This document shows, piece after piece, positions 21,825 to 28,189 of a stretch of 39,764 nt of DNA (position 1 is its first letter; every line of letters begins with the position of its first letter). Where the stretch lies: positions 1 through 39,764 of the forward strand of contig VGEU01000019.1 of NCBI GenBank assembly GCA_016869145.1, given 5' to 3'. The notes under the pieces were generated by a model that made no database searches, had not been told where the DNA came from, and worked only from the letters and a program-made list of their open reading frames with translations. Source of the DNA: Alphaproteobacteria bacterium. Its GTDB lineage: Bacteria; Pseudomonadota; Alphaproteobacteria; MPNO01; VGEU01. Made by a program: the position numbers and the translations under genes.

Positions 21825-22949
21825 TCAGGCCGCCGGCTCGATCCCCGACAGACGGGCATAACGCTGGCGGTGGGCGGCCTCGTTGCCACCGCTTGCCGAC
21901 AGGGCCATCGCGCGCTTGAGATAGAGCCCGATGTCGTGCTCGTCGGTGAAGCCGATCGCGCCGTGCATCTGGATCGAGGACTTGCATACCTGGAGCGCCG
22001 CGCCCGAGGCCTTGGCCTTGACGGCGGAGGCCATCATCGGGCTGCCGCGACCGGCGTCGACGGCGGTGCAGACCTGGAACACCAGCGAGCGCGTCAGCTC
22101 GACCTCGATATATTCGTTGACCGCGCGGTGCTGGAGCGCCTGGAAGCTGCCGATCGGACGATCGAACTGCTTCCGGATCTTGAGATACTCGACCGTGGTG
22201 TCGAGCGCCTGGCCCATGACGCCGAGAAGCTCGGCCCCGGCCCCGATCAGGACACCGTCGGCGAGGCGCTGGCCGATGACGGGCGCATGGTTGGGCCCGG
22301 CGAGGACGTTCTCCTTCGGCACCACGACATTGGTGAGCGTCAGCGTGCCGAGCGCGCCGCCGTCGACCTGCTTCTTGACCGCGAGCCCGGCGCCGGCGGC
22401 ATTCTTCGGCACATAGCAGAGGACGAGGCCATTCGGCCCGCGCGCCGAGACGACGAAGCCGTCGGCGCCGGCGGCATCGGCGATGAAGCTCTTGCGGCCG
22501 GACAGCCGGACGCCGGTGCCGTCGGCGGCGGCGGTCGTCTTGGTCTTGTCGAGCTCGACGCCGAACGGTCCTTCCTGGAGCGCCGGCAGCACGATCCGCT
22601 TGCCCGCCATCATCTCGGCGAGGACGGTCTTCCTGAGGGCGTCGCTCTCGCCCTCGGCGATCGCGCGCGCGGTCATCGCGACCGCGGTCAGGGGCTCGGT
22701 GACGAGGCCGCGGCCGGCCTGCTCGAGGACGAGGCAGAGCTCGGTCATGCCAAGATCGAGCCCGTCGGCGGCGGCGGGCACGGCGAGCGCGAGCCAGCCG
22801 GCCTCGGCGATCTCGCGCCAGGTGGCCGCATCCATGTTGGTCGGCGTGTCGCGCAGCTTCCGCGCCCGCTTCGGCCCGGCGCCACGCTCGACGAGTTTCT
22901 GCGCCGATTCCTGGAGCAGCCTCTGTTCGTCGGTCAGCAAGAGTTCCAT
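21825..22949 (-). CDS. Acyl-CoA dehydrogenase
   Basis: An FAD enzyme that introduces the alpha,beta double bond in an acyl-CoA. It is 374 residues, full family length. The N-terminal helical domain opens LLTDEQRLLQESAQKLVER, the middle beta domain carries the FAD-side strands, and the C-terminal helical domain contains RKQFDRPIGSFQALQHR and IQMHGAIGFTDEHDIGLYLKRA. The usual YEGT catalytic-Glu segment is not evident after GFTDE. Such ACADs (as in the heterotetrameric steroid side-chain enzymes of actinobacteria) often use a different arrangement or a partner subunit, but no second ACAD is encoded here. It lies 34 bases after the acyl-CoA ligase. Confidence 0.93.
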   Translation of the reverse strand: MELLLTDEQRLLQESAQKLVERGAGPKRARKLRDTPTNMDAATWREIAEAGWLALAVPAAADGLDLGMTELCLVLEQAGRGLVTEPLTAVAMTARAIAEGESDALRKTVLAEMMAGKRIVLPALQEGPFGVELDKTKTTAAADGTGVRLSGRKSFIADAAGADGFVVSARGPNGLVLCYVPKNAAGAGLAVKKQVDGGALGTLTLTNVVVPKENVLAGPNHAPVIGQRLADGVLIGAGAELLGVMGQALDTTVEYLKIRKQFDRPIGSFQALQHRAVNEYIEVELTRSLVFQVCTAVDAGRGSPMMASAVKAKASGAALQVCKSSIQMHGAIGFTDEHDIGLYLKRAMALSASGGNEAAHRQRYARLSGIEPAA

Positions 22950-22983
22950 CGTCGCATCTCCCTCGTTCTTATTGGGTATCGAG

Positions 22984-24534
22984 TCACGGCGCGGCAGCCG
23001 GCGCGAGCTCGGCGCGTGCGGCCTCGCGGAGGTCCTTCTTGATCACCTTGCCGCTCGACGTGCGCGGCAGGCGATCGACGAAGCGGACATGTTTCGGCTT
23101 CTTGTAGCTCGCGATGCGGGCCCGGCAGTGCTCGATCAGCGCCGCGGCGTCGACGGTGGCGCCGGGCGCGAGCTCGACATAGGCGCAGACCGATTCACCG
23201 AAGGTGGCATCGGGCACGCCCACGACAGCGGCATCGGCCACCGCCGGGTGATCGATCAGCGCGAGCTCGACCTCCTTGGAATAGATGTTGAGCCCGCCCG
23301 AGACGATCATGTCCTTGGCGCGATCGACAAAATAGACATAGCCGTCGGCATCGATCCGCGCGACATCGCCGGTCCTGAGCCAGCCGTCGACGAAGAGCTC
23401 GGCCGTCGCCTCGGGCCGGCGCCAATAGCCCTTGGTCAGCATCATCTCGCCCGGGCCGCCGCAGCGGACCAGCATCTCGCCCGGCTCGCCCGCGGGCACG
23501 TCGCGGAGTTCGGCATCGACGAAGCGGATCTCGACGCCCGGCACCGGACGGCCGAGCGCGTCGCCATAGGTCATCTGCTCCTCCGGGCGAAGGCAGCAGA
23601 CGAAGCCCGATTCGGTCTGGGCGAAGAACGAGAACAGCCGGATGTCGGGCAGCGCGGCAAACAAACGGCGCTTGAGGTCGTTCGGAAACACCTCCCCCGT
23701 CGCCAGCATGGTGCGGACGCTCCGGCAGGACGCCGGCCGGCGCTCGATCTCGGGCATCAGGAGGCGCGCGATCGTCGGCACGACGCCGATGATCGTGACG
23801 CGCTCCTTCTCGATCAGGTCGACCGCGGCCTTGGCGTCGAACTGGGGCAGGATGACGATCGTGGTGCCGAGGACGAGCGCGTTGCCGACGCGGCCGAGCC
23901 CGGTGCGGTGCGCCATCGGCGTCGTGACGAGGACGCGGTCATCGGCGCCGAGCCGCCACTCGATCCCGTTCATGTAGCCGTGGATCATGATGATGTTGCG
24001 GTGGGTGCCGATCGCGCCCTTGGGCCGCCCGGTGGTGCCCGAGGTGTAGCCGATGACGAGATCGTCGATCGCGGCCGGCAGCGTCGGCGGCGCCACCGCA
24101 TCGCCCTCGGCGATAAGGGCCTCGAACGCGATCTCGCCCGGCTCGGCCGGGCCGACGACGATGCGGAGCGGATCGCCGAGGGCGGCGGCCGCCGCGTGCG
24201 CGGCGGCGCGGAATTCGGGCGTGAAGAGGATGAACCGCGGCGTGCAATCCTCGAAGATGAACGCGACCTCGGCTGGTGCGAGCCGGGTCGAGATCGGCAC
24301 GATCACGCCACCCGACTTGGCGACGGCGGCCATCGCTTCGACCAGCTCTGCGCCGTTCGGGAGATAGAGCGCGACGCGATCGCCCAATTTCTGCCCGCGC
24401 GCGACGAGCGCATTGGCGAGCCGGCTCGATTGTTCGTGGAGCGCGGCGAAACTCACGCGGCGATCGCCGCAGACCACCGCCTCGCGCTCGGGATGGCGGC
24501 GCGCGCAATCGGCGAGGAATGTGCCGAGCTTCAT
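22984..24534 (-). CDS. Acyl-CoA synthetase (AMP-dependent, ANL superfamily)
   Basis: Activates a carboxylic acid to its CoA thioester through an acyl-adenylate. The protein is 516 residues. The ATP loop is YTSGTTGRPKGAIGTH. Motif A5-like FFAQTES is followed by GWLRTGDVARIDADGYVYFVDR (hinge region) and KDMIVSGGLNIYSKEVE, and the catalytic Lys lies in SSGKVIKKDL near the C-terminus. The full set of core motifs suggests an active enzyme. It is preceded by 135 bases with a long hairpin and three 11-bp repeats, and followed closely by the acyl-CoA dehydrogenase. It is probably the entry step of the pathway fed by the ABC importer. Confidence 0.94.
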   Translation of the reverse strand: MKLGTFLADCARRHPEREAVVCGDRRVSFAALHEQSSRLANALVARGQKLGDRVALYLPNGAELVEAMAAVAKSGGVIVPISTRLAPAEVAFIFEDCTPRFILFTPEFRAAAHAAAAALGDPLRIVVGPAEPGEIAFEALIAEGDAVAPPTLPAAIDDLVIGYTSGTTGRPKGAIGTHRNIIMIHGYMNGIEWRLGADDRVLVTTPMAHRTGLGRVGNALVLGTTIVILPQFDAKAAVDLIEKERVTIIGVVPTIARLLMPEIERRPASCRSVRTMLATGEVFPNDLKRRLFAALPDIRLFSFFAQTESGFVCCLRPEEQMTYGDALGRPVPGVEIRFVDAELRDVPAGEPGEMLVRCGGPGEMMLTKGYWRRPEATAELFVDGWLRTGDVARIDADGYVYFVDRAKDMIVSGGLNIYSKEVELALIDHPAVADAAVVGVPDATFGESVCAYVELAPGATVDAAALIEHCRARIASYKKPKHVRFVDRLPRTSSGKVIKKDLREAARAELAPAAAP

Positions 24535-24557
24535 GCGGGGCTCGCTGCGTTCGGTAA

Positions 24558-24590
24558 TGCGTCTAGCGTGCGTCTAGAGTGCGTCTACAG
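24558..24590. repeat. Three tandem 11-bp repeats upstream of the acyl-CoA synthetase gene
   Basis: Units TGCGTCTAGCG (24558-24568), TGCGTCTAGAG (24569-24579) and TGCGTCTACAG (24580-24590) follow without gaps. They end 24 bases from the start codon at 24534 (minus strand). The 11-bp period places each unit on about the same helix face, as in an operator array. They could also be repeated RNA sites in the leader. Confidence 0.8.
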
Positions 24591-24613
24591 AGAGAGGCGC
24601 GCGGCATCGTCCG

Positions 24614-24652
24614 CCGCCCCGCCCCTGCCTCCGAGCGGCGGAGACGGGGCGG
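24614..24652. repeat. Long imperfect hairpin between the DUF35 and acyl-CoA synthetase genes
   Basis: CCGCCCC (24614-24620) pairs with GGGGCGG (24646-24652), and inside it CTCCG (24629-24633) pairs with CGGAG (24639-24643). The hairpin lies just after the DUF35 stop and before the 11-bp repeats. It may be an internal terminator/attenuator or an mRNA processing site that splits the long operon. Confidence 0.5.
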
Positions 24653-24669
24653 AGGTTCGGCGCCCGGCA

Positions 24670-25089
24670 TTACGCCGGTTCGAAGCAGAAATAGCTGATG
24701 TCGTCCGACATCCGCTCGAACGCCACCTTGACCGGCATGCCGACCTTCACCTCGTCGGGCTTGACGTTGATCATGTTGCCGATGATGCGCACGCCCTCGT
24801 CGAGCTCGATCAGGCCGATCGCATACGGCACCTTGTCCTCGAAGCCGGCGGTCGGGACGTAGGTGATCGTGTAGGAATAGACCTTGCCGTGCCCGGACAC
24901 CGTGCGCCACTCGAGGTTGCGCTTGCCGGTCTTGACGCTGATCGACCGCGGCCAGAACTGGTAGACCTTGGCGACGGGATCATATTGCAGCGCGAGCTTG
25001 CCCTGCTTGGCCGCGTCCCAGAAGAACTTGGTCGTCTGGGTCGGGGACGGCATCGGCCGCGGACGCCTCGGCCTCTCACCATTGCTCAT
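24670..25089 (-). CDS. DUF35-family OB-fold protein lacking the zinc-ribbon cysteines
   Basis: A 139-residue protein of the DUF35 family, whose members pair with thiolase-fold enzymes. The N-terminal helix (TKFFWDAAKQGKLALQ) and the OB-fold part (EWRTVSGHGKVYSYTITYVP, GLIELDEGVRIIGNM) are typical. Normal members have a rubredoxin-like ribbon of the form LQ-x-C-x2-C...PR-x2-C-x2-C-G between these parts. Here the same frame reads LQYDPVAK...PRSISVKTG, so the four cysteine positions are Asp37, Ala40, Ser51 and Thr54. The fold is kept but zinc cannot be bound there. It begins 23 bases after the thiolase-fold gene, so the two probably form a complex. Confidence 0.88.
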   Translation of the reverse strand: MSNGERPRRPRPMPSPTQTTKFFWDAAKQGKLALQYDPVAKVYQFWPRSISVKTGKRNLEWRTVSGHGKVYSYTITYVPTAGFEDKVPYAIGLIELDEGVRIIGNMINVKPDEVKVGMPVKVAFERMSDDISYFCFEPA

Positions 25090-25112
25090 ATTCGTTCTCC
25101 GAATTCGCGGTT

Positions 25113-26495
25113 CTAGCGGACGAGGACCATGGCGTTGCTCGTCCCCCAGTTTCGACCATAGGGGATGACGCCGATGCCGGTGACGACGGCGTTGTCGGGC
25201 TTGGGCACCTGACGTCCCTCGGCCTCGCCGAACATCTGGCGGACCGCCTCGGTCAGGTTGAGCCCGCCGCCGGCGAGACCGGGCTGGCCGCAGCTGATCT
25301 GGCCGCCGCCGGTGTTGATCGGGAGCCGGCCGGTCGGCGACAGATCGGTGTCGCGCAGGAACTGCGAGCCCTGGCCGCGCTTGCAGAAACCGAACTGCTC
25401 GAGCTTCAGCATCACCGCGATCAGGAAGTCGTCATAGGGATGGAACATCTTGACGTCCTTCGGCTTCATGCCGGCCTGCTTCAACGCCTCCGGACCGACG
25501 ACGGAGAAGCCGGTCTCGGTGATGTCGGGGCAGGCCTCGGCGCCGAGGAAGTTGGTGATCTCGCGATAGGCGATCGGGTAGGCGCGCTTGGTCCAGCCGC
25601 GGCGTCGCGCGTTCGCGGTCGAGGTGACGATCAGCCCGTTGCCGCCGTCGGCCGGCATGACCGAGTCGAGGAGGCGGAGCGGGTAGGAGACCATGCGCGA
25701 GTTGATGTAGGTGTCGATCGAGATCTTTTCCTTGCGGAACGGCTCGTAGGCATTGGGGTTGACGTTGGCGCCGTTGCGCTGCGCCACCGCGAGCGCGCCG
25801 AGGCCGCGATAGTCGAGATTGTACTGCGCGGCATAGCGCGTCATCAGAAAGCCGAACGCGCCGGGCGGGCCCTGGATGCCGACCGGCTCCCAGAACTCGT
25901 TGCGATAGCAGCCGAAGCGCGACAGGTTCTGCGTCGACGTCGCGTCGGCGTGCAGCAGCATGACCGTCTCGCAGAGGCCCGCCTTGATCGCCATCGCCGC
26001 GCGCGCGACGTTGCCGATCGCCGAGGCGCCGCCGATGTCGGTCTTCTGGCACCAGCGCGGCGTGATGCCGAGATAGTCGGAGGCGTAGTTCGACCAGAAC
26101 GGGTTCGGCGCCTCGGACTGCGGCACGGTGAAGGCGATGCCGTCGATGTCCTTGGGCACGAGCCCGGTCCTGGCGAAGAGCTGCTCGGCGACCTCGGCGG
26201 TGATCTCGTAGGCGTTCTTGCCGCTGCGCCGCTCCACCCGCGTCTCGCCATAGGCGACGATGCAGACATCGCGGTCGCGGAGGAAGTTCGTGCGCGGAAG
26301 CGCCTTGCGCGCCGCGCGCGCGGCCGGTTTCTTCGCCGCGCTCTGGGCGGGCTTCTTGGCGGCCCGGGCGGCGGGCTTCTTCGCCCTCACCCTCTTCGCC
26401 GGCTTCTTCGCCGCCGCCTTCCGTGCCGGTCTCGCGGCCGCCCTCTTGGCGGGTTTCGCCGCCTTGCTACGCTTGGTCTTGGCCTTGGCCATCAT
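25113..26495 (-). CDS. Thiolase-superfamily protein (SCP-x/Ltp-like) with histone-H1-like N-terminal tail
   Basis: Thiolase fold from about residue 70 (RDVCIVAYGET) to the C-terminus; 460 residues in all. The start is an ATGATG pair (26495/26492) behind AAGGGGGA, eight bases after the hydratase stop. Residues 1-67 are a low-complexity Lys/Ala/Arg/Pro tail with four AKKPA repeats (29, 38, 46, 54) and no acidic residue before Asp74. Where thiolases carry the nucleophilic Cys, the sequence is GGASAIG (about 155-161), with Ala or Ser instead. The GHP motif near the C-terminus reads GQP within NTGGGQISCGQPG. Such changes are typical of Ltp2-like retro-aldolases that work with DUF35 partners, so C-C cleavage without thiolysis is plausible. 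This is an inference. The downstream DUF35 gene supports it. Confidence 0.88.
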   Translation of the reverse strand: MMAKAKTKRSKAAKPAKRAAARPARKAAAKKPAKRVRAKKPAARAAKKPAQSAAKKPAARAARKALPRTNFLRDRDVCIVAYGETRVERRSGKNAYEITAEVAEQLFARTGLVPKDIDGIAFTVPQSEAPNPFWSNYASDYLGITPRWCQKTDIGGASAIGNVARAAMAIKAGLCETVMLLHADATSTQNLSRFGCYRNEFWEPVGIQGPPGAFGFLMTRYAAQYNLDYRGLGALAVAQRNGANVNPNAYEPFRKEKISIDTYINSRMVSYPLRLLDSVMPADGGNGLIVTSTANARRRGWTKRAYPIAYREITNFLGAEACPDITETGFSVVGPEALKQAGMKPKDVKMFHPYDDFLIAVMLKLEQFGFCKRGQGSQFLRDTDLSPTGRLPINTGGGQISCGQPGLAGGGLNLTEAVRQMFGEAEGRQVPKPDNAVVTGIGVIPYGRNWGTSNAMVLVR

Positions 26496-26503
26496 GTCCC
26501 CCT

Positions 26504-27337
26504 TTATTGTCCCTTGAATTTCGGTTCGCGCTTCTCGGCGAAGGCCTTGAGACCTTCCGCCCGGTCCTCGGAGAATGTCAACAGATACGCGAGGTCGCCT
26601 TCCTGCAGGAAGCCCTGCGCCAGTGTCATGTCGACGCCGCGATCGACCGCCTGCTTGATCATCATGACGGCGAGCGGGCCGTTCTTGCCGATCGCGGCGG
26701 CGATCTCGCGCGCCTTCTCGATCGCCTGTCCCTTGGCGACGACGTGGTTGACGAGGCGGAACTCCTTCGCCTCCTGCGCATTGATGCGCCGCGCGGTCCA
26801 CATCAGCTCCTTGGCGAGCGCCTTGCCGAGGAGCCGCGGCAGGTTCTGGGTGCCGCCGGCGCCGGGGATCAGGCTGTGGCGCGATTCCGGGAGGCCGAAC
26901 TGCGCGGTCTCGCTCGCGACGATGATGTCGCAGAACATCGAGAGCTCGAACCCGCCGCCGAGGCAATAGCCCTCGACCGCGACGATGACCGGCTTCGAGT
27001 AGCCCGAGACATACTTGAAGAGCTGTCGGTTCTTCCGGATGTTGAACCGCGCCCGGTAGTTGTCGTAGCGGTCCTCGGGCCGGTCGGAGAACCCGCCGAG
27101 ATCGGCGCCGGCGCAGAACGCGCGCTCGTTGCCCTGCATGATGATGGCGACGATCTCGCGGTCGAGCTCGACCGAGCCCATCGCCTCGACGATCTCGCCC
27201 GCCATCTGCTCGTTGAGGGCGTTCATCCGGTCCGGGCGGTTGAGCGTGATCTCGAACGTCGAGCCGTGGCGCGCGGTCAGGATGAATTCATAGGTCTTGT
27301 CGGCGGTCTTGGTCTTCTCGGTCGGCTTCTTTGCCAT
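26504..27337 (-). CDS. Enoyl-CoA hydratase/isomerase family protein
   Basis: A 277-residue crotonase-fold protein. It has a Lys-rich N-terminal tail (MAKKPTEKTKTADKTYE) before the core. The oxyanion-hole segments are FCAGADLGGF and VEGYCLGGGFELSMFCD, followed by FGLPESRHSLIPGAGGTQNLPRLLG. The second catalytic Glu of hydratases is expected within this PESRHSLIPGAGGTQ segment, and the Glu of LPES matches it. It therefore probably hydrates a 2-enoyl-CoA, although crotonase members vary widely. It is eight bases upstream of the thiolase-fold gene and 51 bases after the ABC ATPase, linking the importer to the CoA pathway. Confidence 0.92.
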   Translation of the reverse strand: MAKKPTEKTKTADKTYEFILTARHGSTFEITLNRPDRMNALNEQMAGEIVEAMGSVELDREIVAIIMQGNERAFCAGADLGGFSDRPEDRYDNYRARFNIRKNRQLFKYVSGYSKPVIVAVEGYCLGGGFELSMFCDIIVASETAQFGLPESRHSLIPGAGGTQNLPRLLGKALAKELMWTARRINAQEAKEFRLVNHVVAKGQAIEKAREIAAAIGKNGPLAVMMIKQAVDRGVDMTLAQGFLQEGDLAYLLTFSEDRAEGLKAFAEKREPKFKGQ

Positions 27338-27388
27338 GCGTCCCCTCCGTATTACGATCCATGTGCTTGACTCGTTGCGGCGCCACGG

Positions 27389-28189
27389 TCAATGGCGGAG
27401 GCCGTCTGCAACCTCCTCCGCCGGCGCCTCTTCGCCCCCCATCGCCTCGGCGATGCGCCGGTGCCGGTCGCGGAGCCATGCCGGATCGGCGCGATCCTCC
27501 GGCCGCACGCGCACCTCGAGGGCGAGACGCGCCGGGGCGGCGAGCACGATGACGCGGTCGGCCATCTCGAGCGCGTCGTCGATCCTGTGCGTGATCAGGA
27601 CGCATGTCTTCTTGACCCGGCGGACGAGCTCGGTGAAGTCGGACCTAAGCGCCTTCGAGGTGACGTGGTCGAGCTGGCTGAAGCTCTCGTCGAGGAGGAC
27701 GAGCTCGGGGTCGACGGCGAGCGCGCGGGCGAGGCTCACCCGCTGGCGCATCCCGCCCGACAGTTGGTGCGGATATTTCGCGACGTTCTCCGCACCGGTG
27801 ATCTTGACGTTCTCGAGCCAGCGGATCGCCTCGGCGCGCCGCGTCGGGGCGTCGCGCCCCATGATCTGGAGCCCGAGGGCGACGTTCTCCCACGCCGTCC
27901 GCCACGGCAGCAGCCGGTCGGTCTGGAACGAGACCGAGAGCTTGCCCTTGAGCGCCTTGAAGTCGGCATAGGGATCGAGTCCCTCGACCCGCACCGTCCC
28001 CGCGCTCGGCGGCATCACCCCCATGATCATGTGGAGCGCGGTCGATTTGCCGGCCCCGGTGCGCCCGACGATGGCGACGATCTCGCCCTTGGCGACGGCG
28101 AACGAGAGATCGCGCACGGCATAGTGGTCGCCGAACCGCTTGTCGACGCGGTCGAGGACGATCATCGCCGCGCCTCCCGCGGCGGTCAT
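27389..28189 (-). CDS. ABC transporter ATP-binding protein (nitrate/sulfonate/taurine type)
   Basis: A 266-residue ATPase of a TauB/SsuB-like importer. The ATG at 28189 overlaps the permease stop as ATGA. Another ATG at 28165 would give a start at MIVLD. Walker A is GRTGAGKST (42-50), the Q-loop FQTDRLLPW, the signature LSGGMRQRVSLARAL, Walker B LVLLDESFSQLD and the H-loop LITHR. The usual DEPF after Walker B is DESF here, a small departure in an otherwise intact protein. It works with the permease and binding protein directly upstream and is followed by the enoyl-CoA hydratase. Confidence 0.94.
   Translation of the reverse strand: MTAAGGAAMIVLDRVDKRFGDHYAVRDLSFAVAKGEIVAIVGRTGAGKSTALHMIMGVMPPSAGTVRVEGLDPYADFKALKGKLSVSFQTDRLLPWRTAWENVALGLQIMGRDAPTRRAEAIRWLENVKITGAENVAKYPHQLSGGMRQRVSLARALAVDPELVLLDESFSQLDHVTSKALRSDFTELVRRVKKTCVLITHRIDDALEMADRVIVLAAPARLALEVRVRPEDRADPAWLRDRHRRIAEAMGGEEAPAEEVADGLRH

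Follow-up and report, generated by a model that had tools for sequence, protein, structure and literature searches.

The gene at positions 25113-26495 on the minus strand of the window (the whole stretch of 39,764 nucleotides that was analyzed) encodes a protein of 460 amino acids in which a histone H1-like tail and a thiolase-fold domain share one reading frame. Histone-like tails are familiar from DNA-packing and granule proteins. Here such a tail is carried by what is probably a catabolic enzyme; among the genomes searched it is lineage-specific, and its function is proposed by analogy. The best explanation, which we put forward tentatively and at somewhat less than an even chance, is that the tail is a lineage-specific, generic electrostatic anchor of the AlgP or PhaF kind that would hold the enzyme complex loosely on nucleic acid or polyphosphate.

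Composition and Translation of the Tail

Translation of the frame gives the N-terminus MMAKAKTKRSKAAKPAKRAAARPARKAAAKKPAKRVRAKKPAARAAKKPAQSAAKKPAARAARKALPR, followed by TNFLRDRD. Sequence composition, predicted disorder and absence from the close orthologs read all delimit the tail to residues 1-67 (26295-26495, minus strand). These residues comprise 26 Ala, 17 Lys, 9 Arg and 7 Pro (88% in total) and carry a net charge of +26, compared to +5 for the 392 residues from 69 to 460. The first acidic residue of the protein is Asp74. The motif AKKPA occurs four times, starting at residues 29, 38, 46, and 54 (spacing 9, 8, and 8), and KPA five times; a long Lys/Ala/Pro-rich stretch with such KPA-type repeats and almost no acidic residue is what defines an H1-like (AlgP/PhaF-type) tail. 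When the tail's own residues were shuffled, none of 20,000 shuffles had more than two AKKPA motifs, and the arrangement of four is more than chance. The initial annotation had described the same composition, repeat spacing and lack of acidic residues before position 74, all of which were recovered on recounting, and its comparison to H1 and AlgP agrees with the KPA repeats and the predicted disorder.

A Shine-Dalgarno-like sequence, AAGGGGG (26498-26504, minus strand), is located 2 nt before a first ATG (ATG1, 26493-26495) and 5 nt before a second (ATG2, 26490-26492), and the stop codon of the upstream hydratase gene lies 8 nt ahead of ATG1. The tail is therefore in frame behind a good ribosome site, as had been claimed. 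The further claim that no good alternative start exists just ahead of the domain was also borne out. In-frame start codons were found only at residues 1, 2, 36 (GTG, in the middle of the tail), and 87 (GTG, right past the first strand of the domain), and the stretch from 36 to 87 holds no further one. No start therefore deletes the tail alone; a translation start inside or after the tail was rejected for this reason. ATG2, giving MAKAK, is the likelier start since most close orthologs begin with MA(K/R). The GC content at third codon positions was 0.91 for the tail, against 0.94 for the domain, and the tail thus resembles coding sequence. All of this is in favor of an anchor, and the maintained third-position GC content also counts against a tail that is merely tolerated.

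An AlphaFold model built from 45 sequences had a mean pLDDT of 83, while an earlier model built from 12 sequences had a mean of 46. In the former, residues 1-67 were predicted to be disordered (pLDDT below 50, no secondary structure), and pLDDT was mostly above 90 after residue 67. Residue 69 of the model aligns with residue 1 of 9myr in the fold comparison, i.e., the ordered domain begins where its homologs begin. Both the predicted disorder and this boundary speak for an anchor.

The codons of the AKKPA repeats had a mean identity of 0.86, a value that was reached or exceeded in simulations of independent codon choice with P = 0.76. With codons as varied as such choice predicts, the repeats did not arise by a fresh duplication of DNA, which excludes recent tandem duplication as the source of the tail and speaks for the anchor. 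Among the Arg codons of residues 1-68, four of ten are AGG or AGA compared to a background of 4.8% (P = 0.0008). This excess fits either a drift from AAG to AGG or a sequence that is not host-optimized. It is a point against the anchor and in favor of a neutral addition; however, a change from Lys (AAG/AAA) to Arg keeps the charge, and the Arg codons therefore do not discriminate between the two.

It is very improbable that the tail is an artefact, whether because an H1-like sequence was wrongly joined to the gene during assembly or because translation starts inside the domain. The genome is fragmented into 247 contigs, a stand-alone H1-like gene is located at a contig end, and repetitive Lys/Ala-rich DNA is prone to mis-assembly. 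Against this, syntenic neighbors and reading frame are intact on both flanks, so that two in-frame mis-joins would be needed, and the absence of a start codon between residues 36 and 87 also counts against an artefact. Nor did the tail have a convincing long DNA match to the stand-alone gene or to the rest of the searched part of the genome (best matches 24-47 nt at 78-96%), and a tail copied from either source was rejected on the same grounds.

The Tail Is Absent from Orthologs

Among 26 other genomes of the order we found ten close orthologs with 66-72% identity over the matched stretch. By tblastn comparison the close orthologs read have no tail, and most start with MA(K/R)NFL. None of 76 relatives from a scan of named genomes (24-74% identity) had a Lys/Ala-rich N-terminus; the best of these belongs to Defluviicoccus, and the nearest relatives are only 74% identical. 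Within the class (385 genomes), only a paralog in the same genome (C55, L003) matched ahead of query residue 45, apparently from residue 6-7. The gene of this paralog starts with MKNHMAARDV and has no tail; the apparent extension is noise from the upstream frame. Plasmid homologs, considering the best 15 of 217 records, match from query residue 66-79 onward and are likewise without the tail.

The tail-less orthologs and plasmid homologs rule out the tail as a conserved feature of the family, and because orthologs lack it, it is not needed for catalysis. By sequence comparison the tail is a gain of the lineage of this genome, alone among the genomes searched, placed behind a conserved MA(K) start; at the insertion point the start of the relatives already reads MAK(K)NFL. 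The initial annotation had mentioned a role in assembly as one possibility and had named tail-less orthologs as one finding that would refute its reading. The proposed ortholog comparison gave precisely this outcome, so that the tail is a lineage-specific add-on and does not belong to the mechanism or assembly of the family. The tail-less orthologs can serve as natural controls when asking whether the gain of one tail alters where the enzyme is located or how active it is.

The lack of a counterpart in any ortholog argues against the anchor and leads to a second explanation, which is plausible and almost as likely. The beginning of the protein, ATGGCCAAGAAG here and MAKK in relatives, may have expanded or taken in a Lys/Ala-rich piece, with the resulting disordered tail tolerated without function and any polyanion binding incidental. 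Starts such as MAKKNFL already hold an AKK seed, the Arg codons are atypical, and the nearest relatives, at only 74% identity, give no indication that the tail has been retained through time. On the other hand, an acid-free segment of charge +26 with regularly spaced AKKPA is improbable from drift alone, and a tail this strongly cationic may be costly to the cell. Similar tails recur on catabolic enzymes that this genome encodes and in the same operon of a relative, as described below, which also disfavors neutrality.

The Enzyme Domain and Its Operon

The domain (residues 68-460 and the stop codon, 25113-26294, minus strand) matches Thiolase_C_1 (PF22691) in Pfam, and sequence comparison with solved structures places it nearest to 9MYR (Sal), 4U4E, and 6OK1 (Ltp2). 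Sequence matches to 9MYR (E = 3e-68) and 6OK1 (E = 2e-46) are at an identity of about 28-32%. In comparisons of the AlphaFold model 9MYR was the top fold match (Z = 48.2, 2.5 Å over 371 residues), and 6OK1 gave Z = 46.2 and 2.3 Å over 366 residues. These two structures, the DUF35-linked steroid side-chain aldolases CtSal and TcLtp2, are thus among the best matches by both sequence and fold. Both solved chains align from residue 1 or 2 onward and are without such a tail.

In place of the thiolase nucleophile the domain has GG155-156, and the nucleophilic Cys is missing. The initial annotation had called the protein a thiolase-fold metabolic enzyme, and while the fold agrees with the structural matches, the loss of this Cys makes thiolase activity improbable. 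GG155-156, Y354-D355-D356-F357, Gln399, and Gln404 are invariant across 45 homologs. In the alignments Tyr354 falls on the catalytic Tyr of both enzymes, Tyr294 in Ltp2 and Tyr302 in Sal (PMC12329534), so the Tyr base of CtSal and TcLtp2 is conserved. Asp356 stands in place of Sal Cys304 and Ltp2 His296, and Gln404 is at the Tyr344/Gln352 position (Tyr344 in Ltp2). The second catalytic residue, Cys in Sal (Cys304) or Tyr in Ltp2 (Tyr344), was not found, and since it differs the enzyme at most acts in a similar way and was assigned to neither Sal nor Ltp2. Given the GG at the Cys site, the aligned Tyr354 and the adjoining DUF35 gene, the enzyme is probably a DUF35-linked C-C lyase rather than a Cys-dependent thiolase. 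The motif YDDF is invariant in the thiolase-fold family, compared to YDCY in Sal and YDHF in Ltp2. Possibly, the YDDF family represents a third active-site type among the DUF35-linked aldolases, with Asp356 as candidate acid.

The gene is preceded by an enoyl-CoA hydratase (crotonase) gene (26504-27337, minus strand; PF00378), whose product has a mildly basic N-terminus, MAKKPTEKTKTADK, and whose place in the gene order is kept in relatives; CtSal and TcLtp2 systems, in contrast, have a MaoC hydratase. Further upstream is the ATPase of an ABC transporter (27389-28165, minus strand; inferred start MIVLDRV), with 71-78% identity in syntenic relatives. The gene of the DUF35/OB-fold partner (ChsH2-type; 24670-25089, minus strand; PF01796) is directly downstream here and in all syntenic relatives, as expected of a Sal/Ltp2-type aldolase at the gene level; the complex is predicted. 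By synteny, genes for an AMP-forming acyl-CoA ligase (22984-24534, minus strand; PF00501) and an acyl-CoA dehydrogenase (21825-22949, minus strand; PF00441 and PF02771) belong to the same operon. Nine relatives share the gene order hydratase, thiolase-fold, DUF35, ligase, and some of them also have the ABC ATPase or the dehydrogenase. The cluster from ABC ATPase to acyl-CoA dehydrogenase (21825-28165, minus strand) looks like one for uptake and CoA-dependent degradation of a carboxylic acid.

Similar Tails Elsewhere

A six-frame census of tails covered 2.66 of the 3.93 Mb of this genome (68%) and returned four open reading frames with such a Lys/Ala-rich stretch, i.e., the thiolase-fold gene and three others. 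The first is the stand-alone H1-like protein of 84 amino acids near a contig end (G000:C208:3324-3656; L150, plus strand), which had no Pfam or NCBIfam match. The second is a small subunit of the acetone/acetophenone carboxylase type (PF08882/NF042974; G000:C2:25377-25931; L142:5377-5931, plus strand) with a Lys/Ala/Arg-rich C-terminal tail of about 45 amino acids; its plasmid homologs match the core and little more, up to residue 104-125 of 156. The third is an alpha/beta hydrolase (G000:C46; L241:7929-9563, minus strand) whose C-terminus is extended by about 200 amino acids of low-complexity sequence rich in Ala, Pro and Lys.

The 104 loci of relatives examined (626 kb) contained a single tail match, in the hydratase whose gene immediately precedes the thiolase-fold gene in genome G014 (L067, also present as L013). 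This hydratase starts with MARKPAAAKKPAKKPAATKTGKYEYI and has a tail of 22 amino acids, MARKPAAAKKPAKKPAATKTGK, that includes AKKPAKKPA. The view that such tails do not occur on metabolic enzymes can therefore not be upheld, given the carboxylase subunit and the hydrolase of the same genome and the short tail of the G014 hydratase. In the literature, as far as it was covered, which was incompletely, we found no enzyme with an H1-like tail.

Clusters of AKK(P/A)A are rare in the order. Five were found among 11 other genomes examined in full, and one of the five lies in the thiolase-fold operon (P about 0.001-0.005 by chance); the clusters were picked and scored by hand, post hoc, and the figure rests on one extra case. 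Together with the tails on other catabolic proteins, this recurrence argues for the anchor.

The tail of the G014 hydratase also suggests an operon-specific role in assembly, where the hydratase or the thiolase-fold subunit would use a basic tail to bind the other enzyme, an acidic partner or sites rich in acyl-CoA, so that a pathway intermediate is handed over. In agreement with this, the hydratases of L060-L062 and L066 have other strongly basic N-termini, MARKL(K/T)SF(S/R)RP(K/R)GG, and the order hydratase, thiolase-fold, DUF35 is conserved. However, L059, L063, L065, and L102 keep the operon and have a basic tail on neither protein, no acidic partner was identified, and in known Sal/Ltp2-type complexes DUF35 already bridges the subunits (PMC12329534). 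We consider this explanation improbable. It is also unlikely, if slightly less so, that enzymes of this single catabolic operon acquire H1-like tails again and again, each time independently (the thiolase-fold protein here, the hydratase in G014), as interchangeable electrostatic tags that would place the pathway on a polyanionic scaffold, be it the nucleoid or a polyphosphate granule.

The Tail as a Proposed Electrostatic Anchor

For the tail to act as an anchor, translation would start at ATG1 or ATG2, as the sequence strongly indicates, and the tail would be disordered, as predicted, and bind polyanions, as its composition and the examples of AlgP and PhaF suggest. Binding to cytoplasmic polyanions would be loose and without sequence preference, with nucleoid DNA and RNA as the first targets and polyphosphate granules as a further one if the cell makes them. 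This would alter the location, solubility or local concentration of the enzyme and leave its chemistry unchanged. Tethering to nucleic acid or polyphosphate, along the lines suggested by the initial annotation, is plausible. In the known relatives two DUF35 subunits flank a dimer of the enzyme; with the same architecture each complex here would carry two or more tails (about +52 charges). If a catabolic enzyme indeed gained a portable tag, bacteria could readily relocate metabolism through charge alone.

The composition and KPA repeats match the corresponding domains of PhaF and AlgP. The C-terminal domain of AlgP from Pseudomonas aeruginosa is a disordered, strongly positive Lys/Pro/Ala repeat tail of H1-like composition (PMC9239181), and as in the present protein the tail and a separate ordered part are found in one polypeptide. 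In AlgP the tail is 154 amino acids long, contains 25 perfect KPAA repeats, is attached to a helical DNA-binding protein, and is reported to be required for the spacing of polyphosphate granules (PMC9239181), whereas the tail described here is N-terminal, 67 amino acids long, Arg-containing, of the AKKPA type, and located on an enzyme. In the phasin PhaF, AAKP-like repeats are joined to an unrelated functional domain and link a cargo to nucleoid DNA (PMC5658603). The histone-like domain of PhaF was reported to bind DNA non-specifically; it is C-terminal with eight repeats, and PhaF itself is a protein of PHA granules, to which it binds, rather than an enzyme (PMC5658603).

Genes for polyphosphate kinase and PHA synthase are present in this genome, which is in agreement with an anchor. 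Defluviicoccus, which includes the nearest named relatives, has ppk and ppx, yet polyphosphate storage was not reported under the conditions tested (PMC9041414). This is a point against an anchor, and it makes nucleic acid a likelier partner of the tail than polyphosphate.
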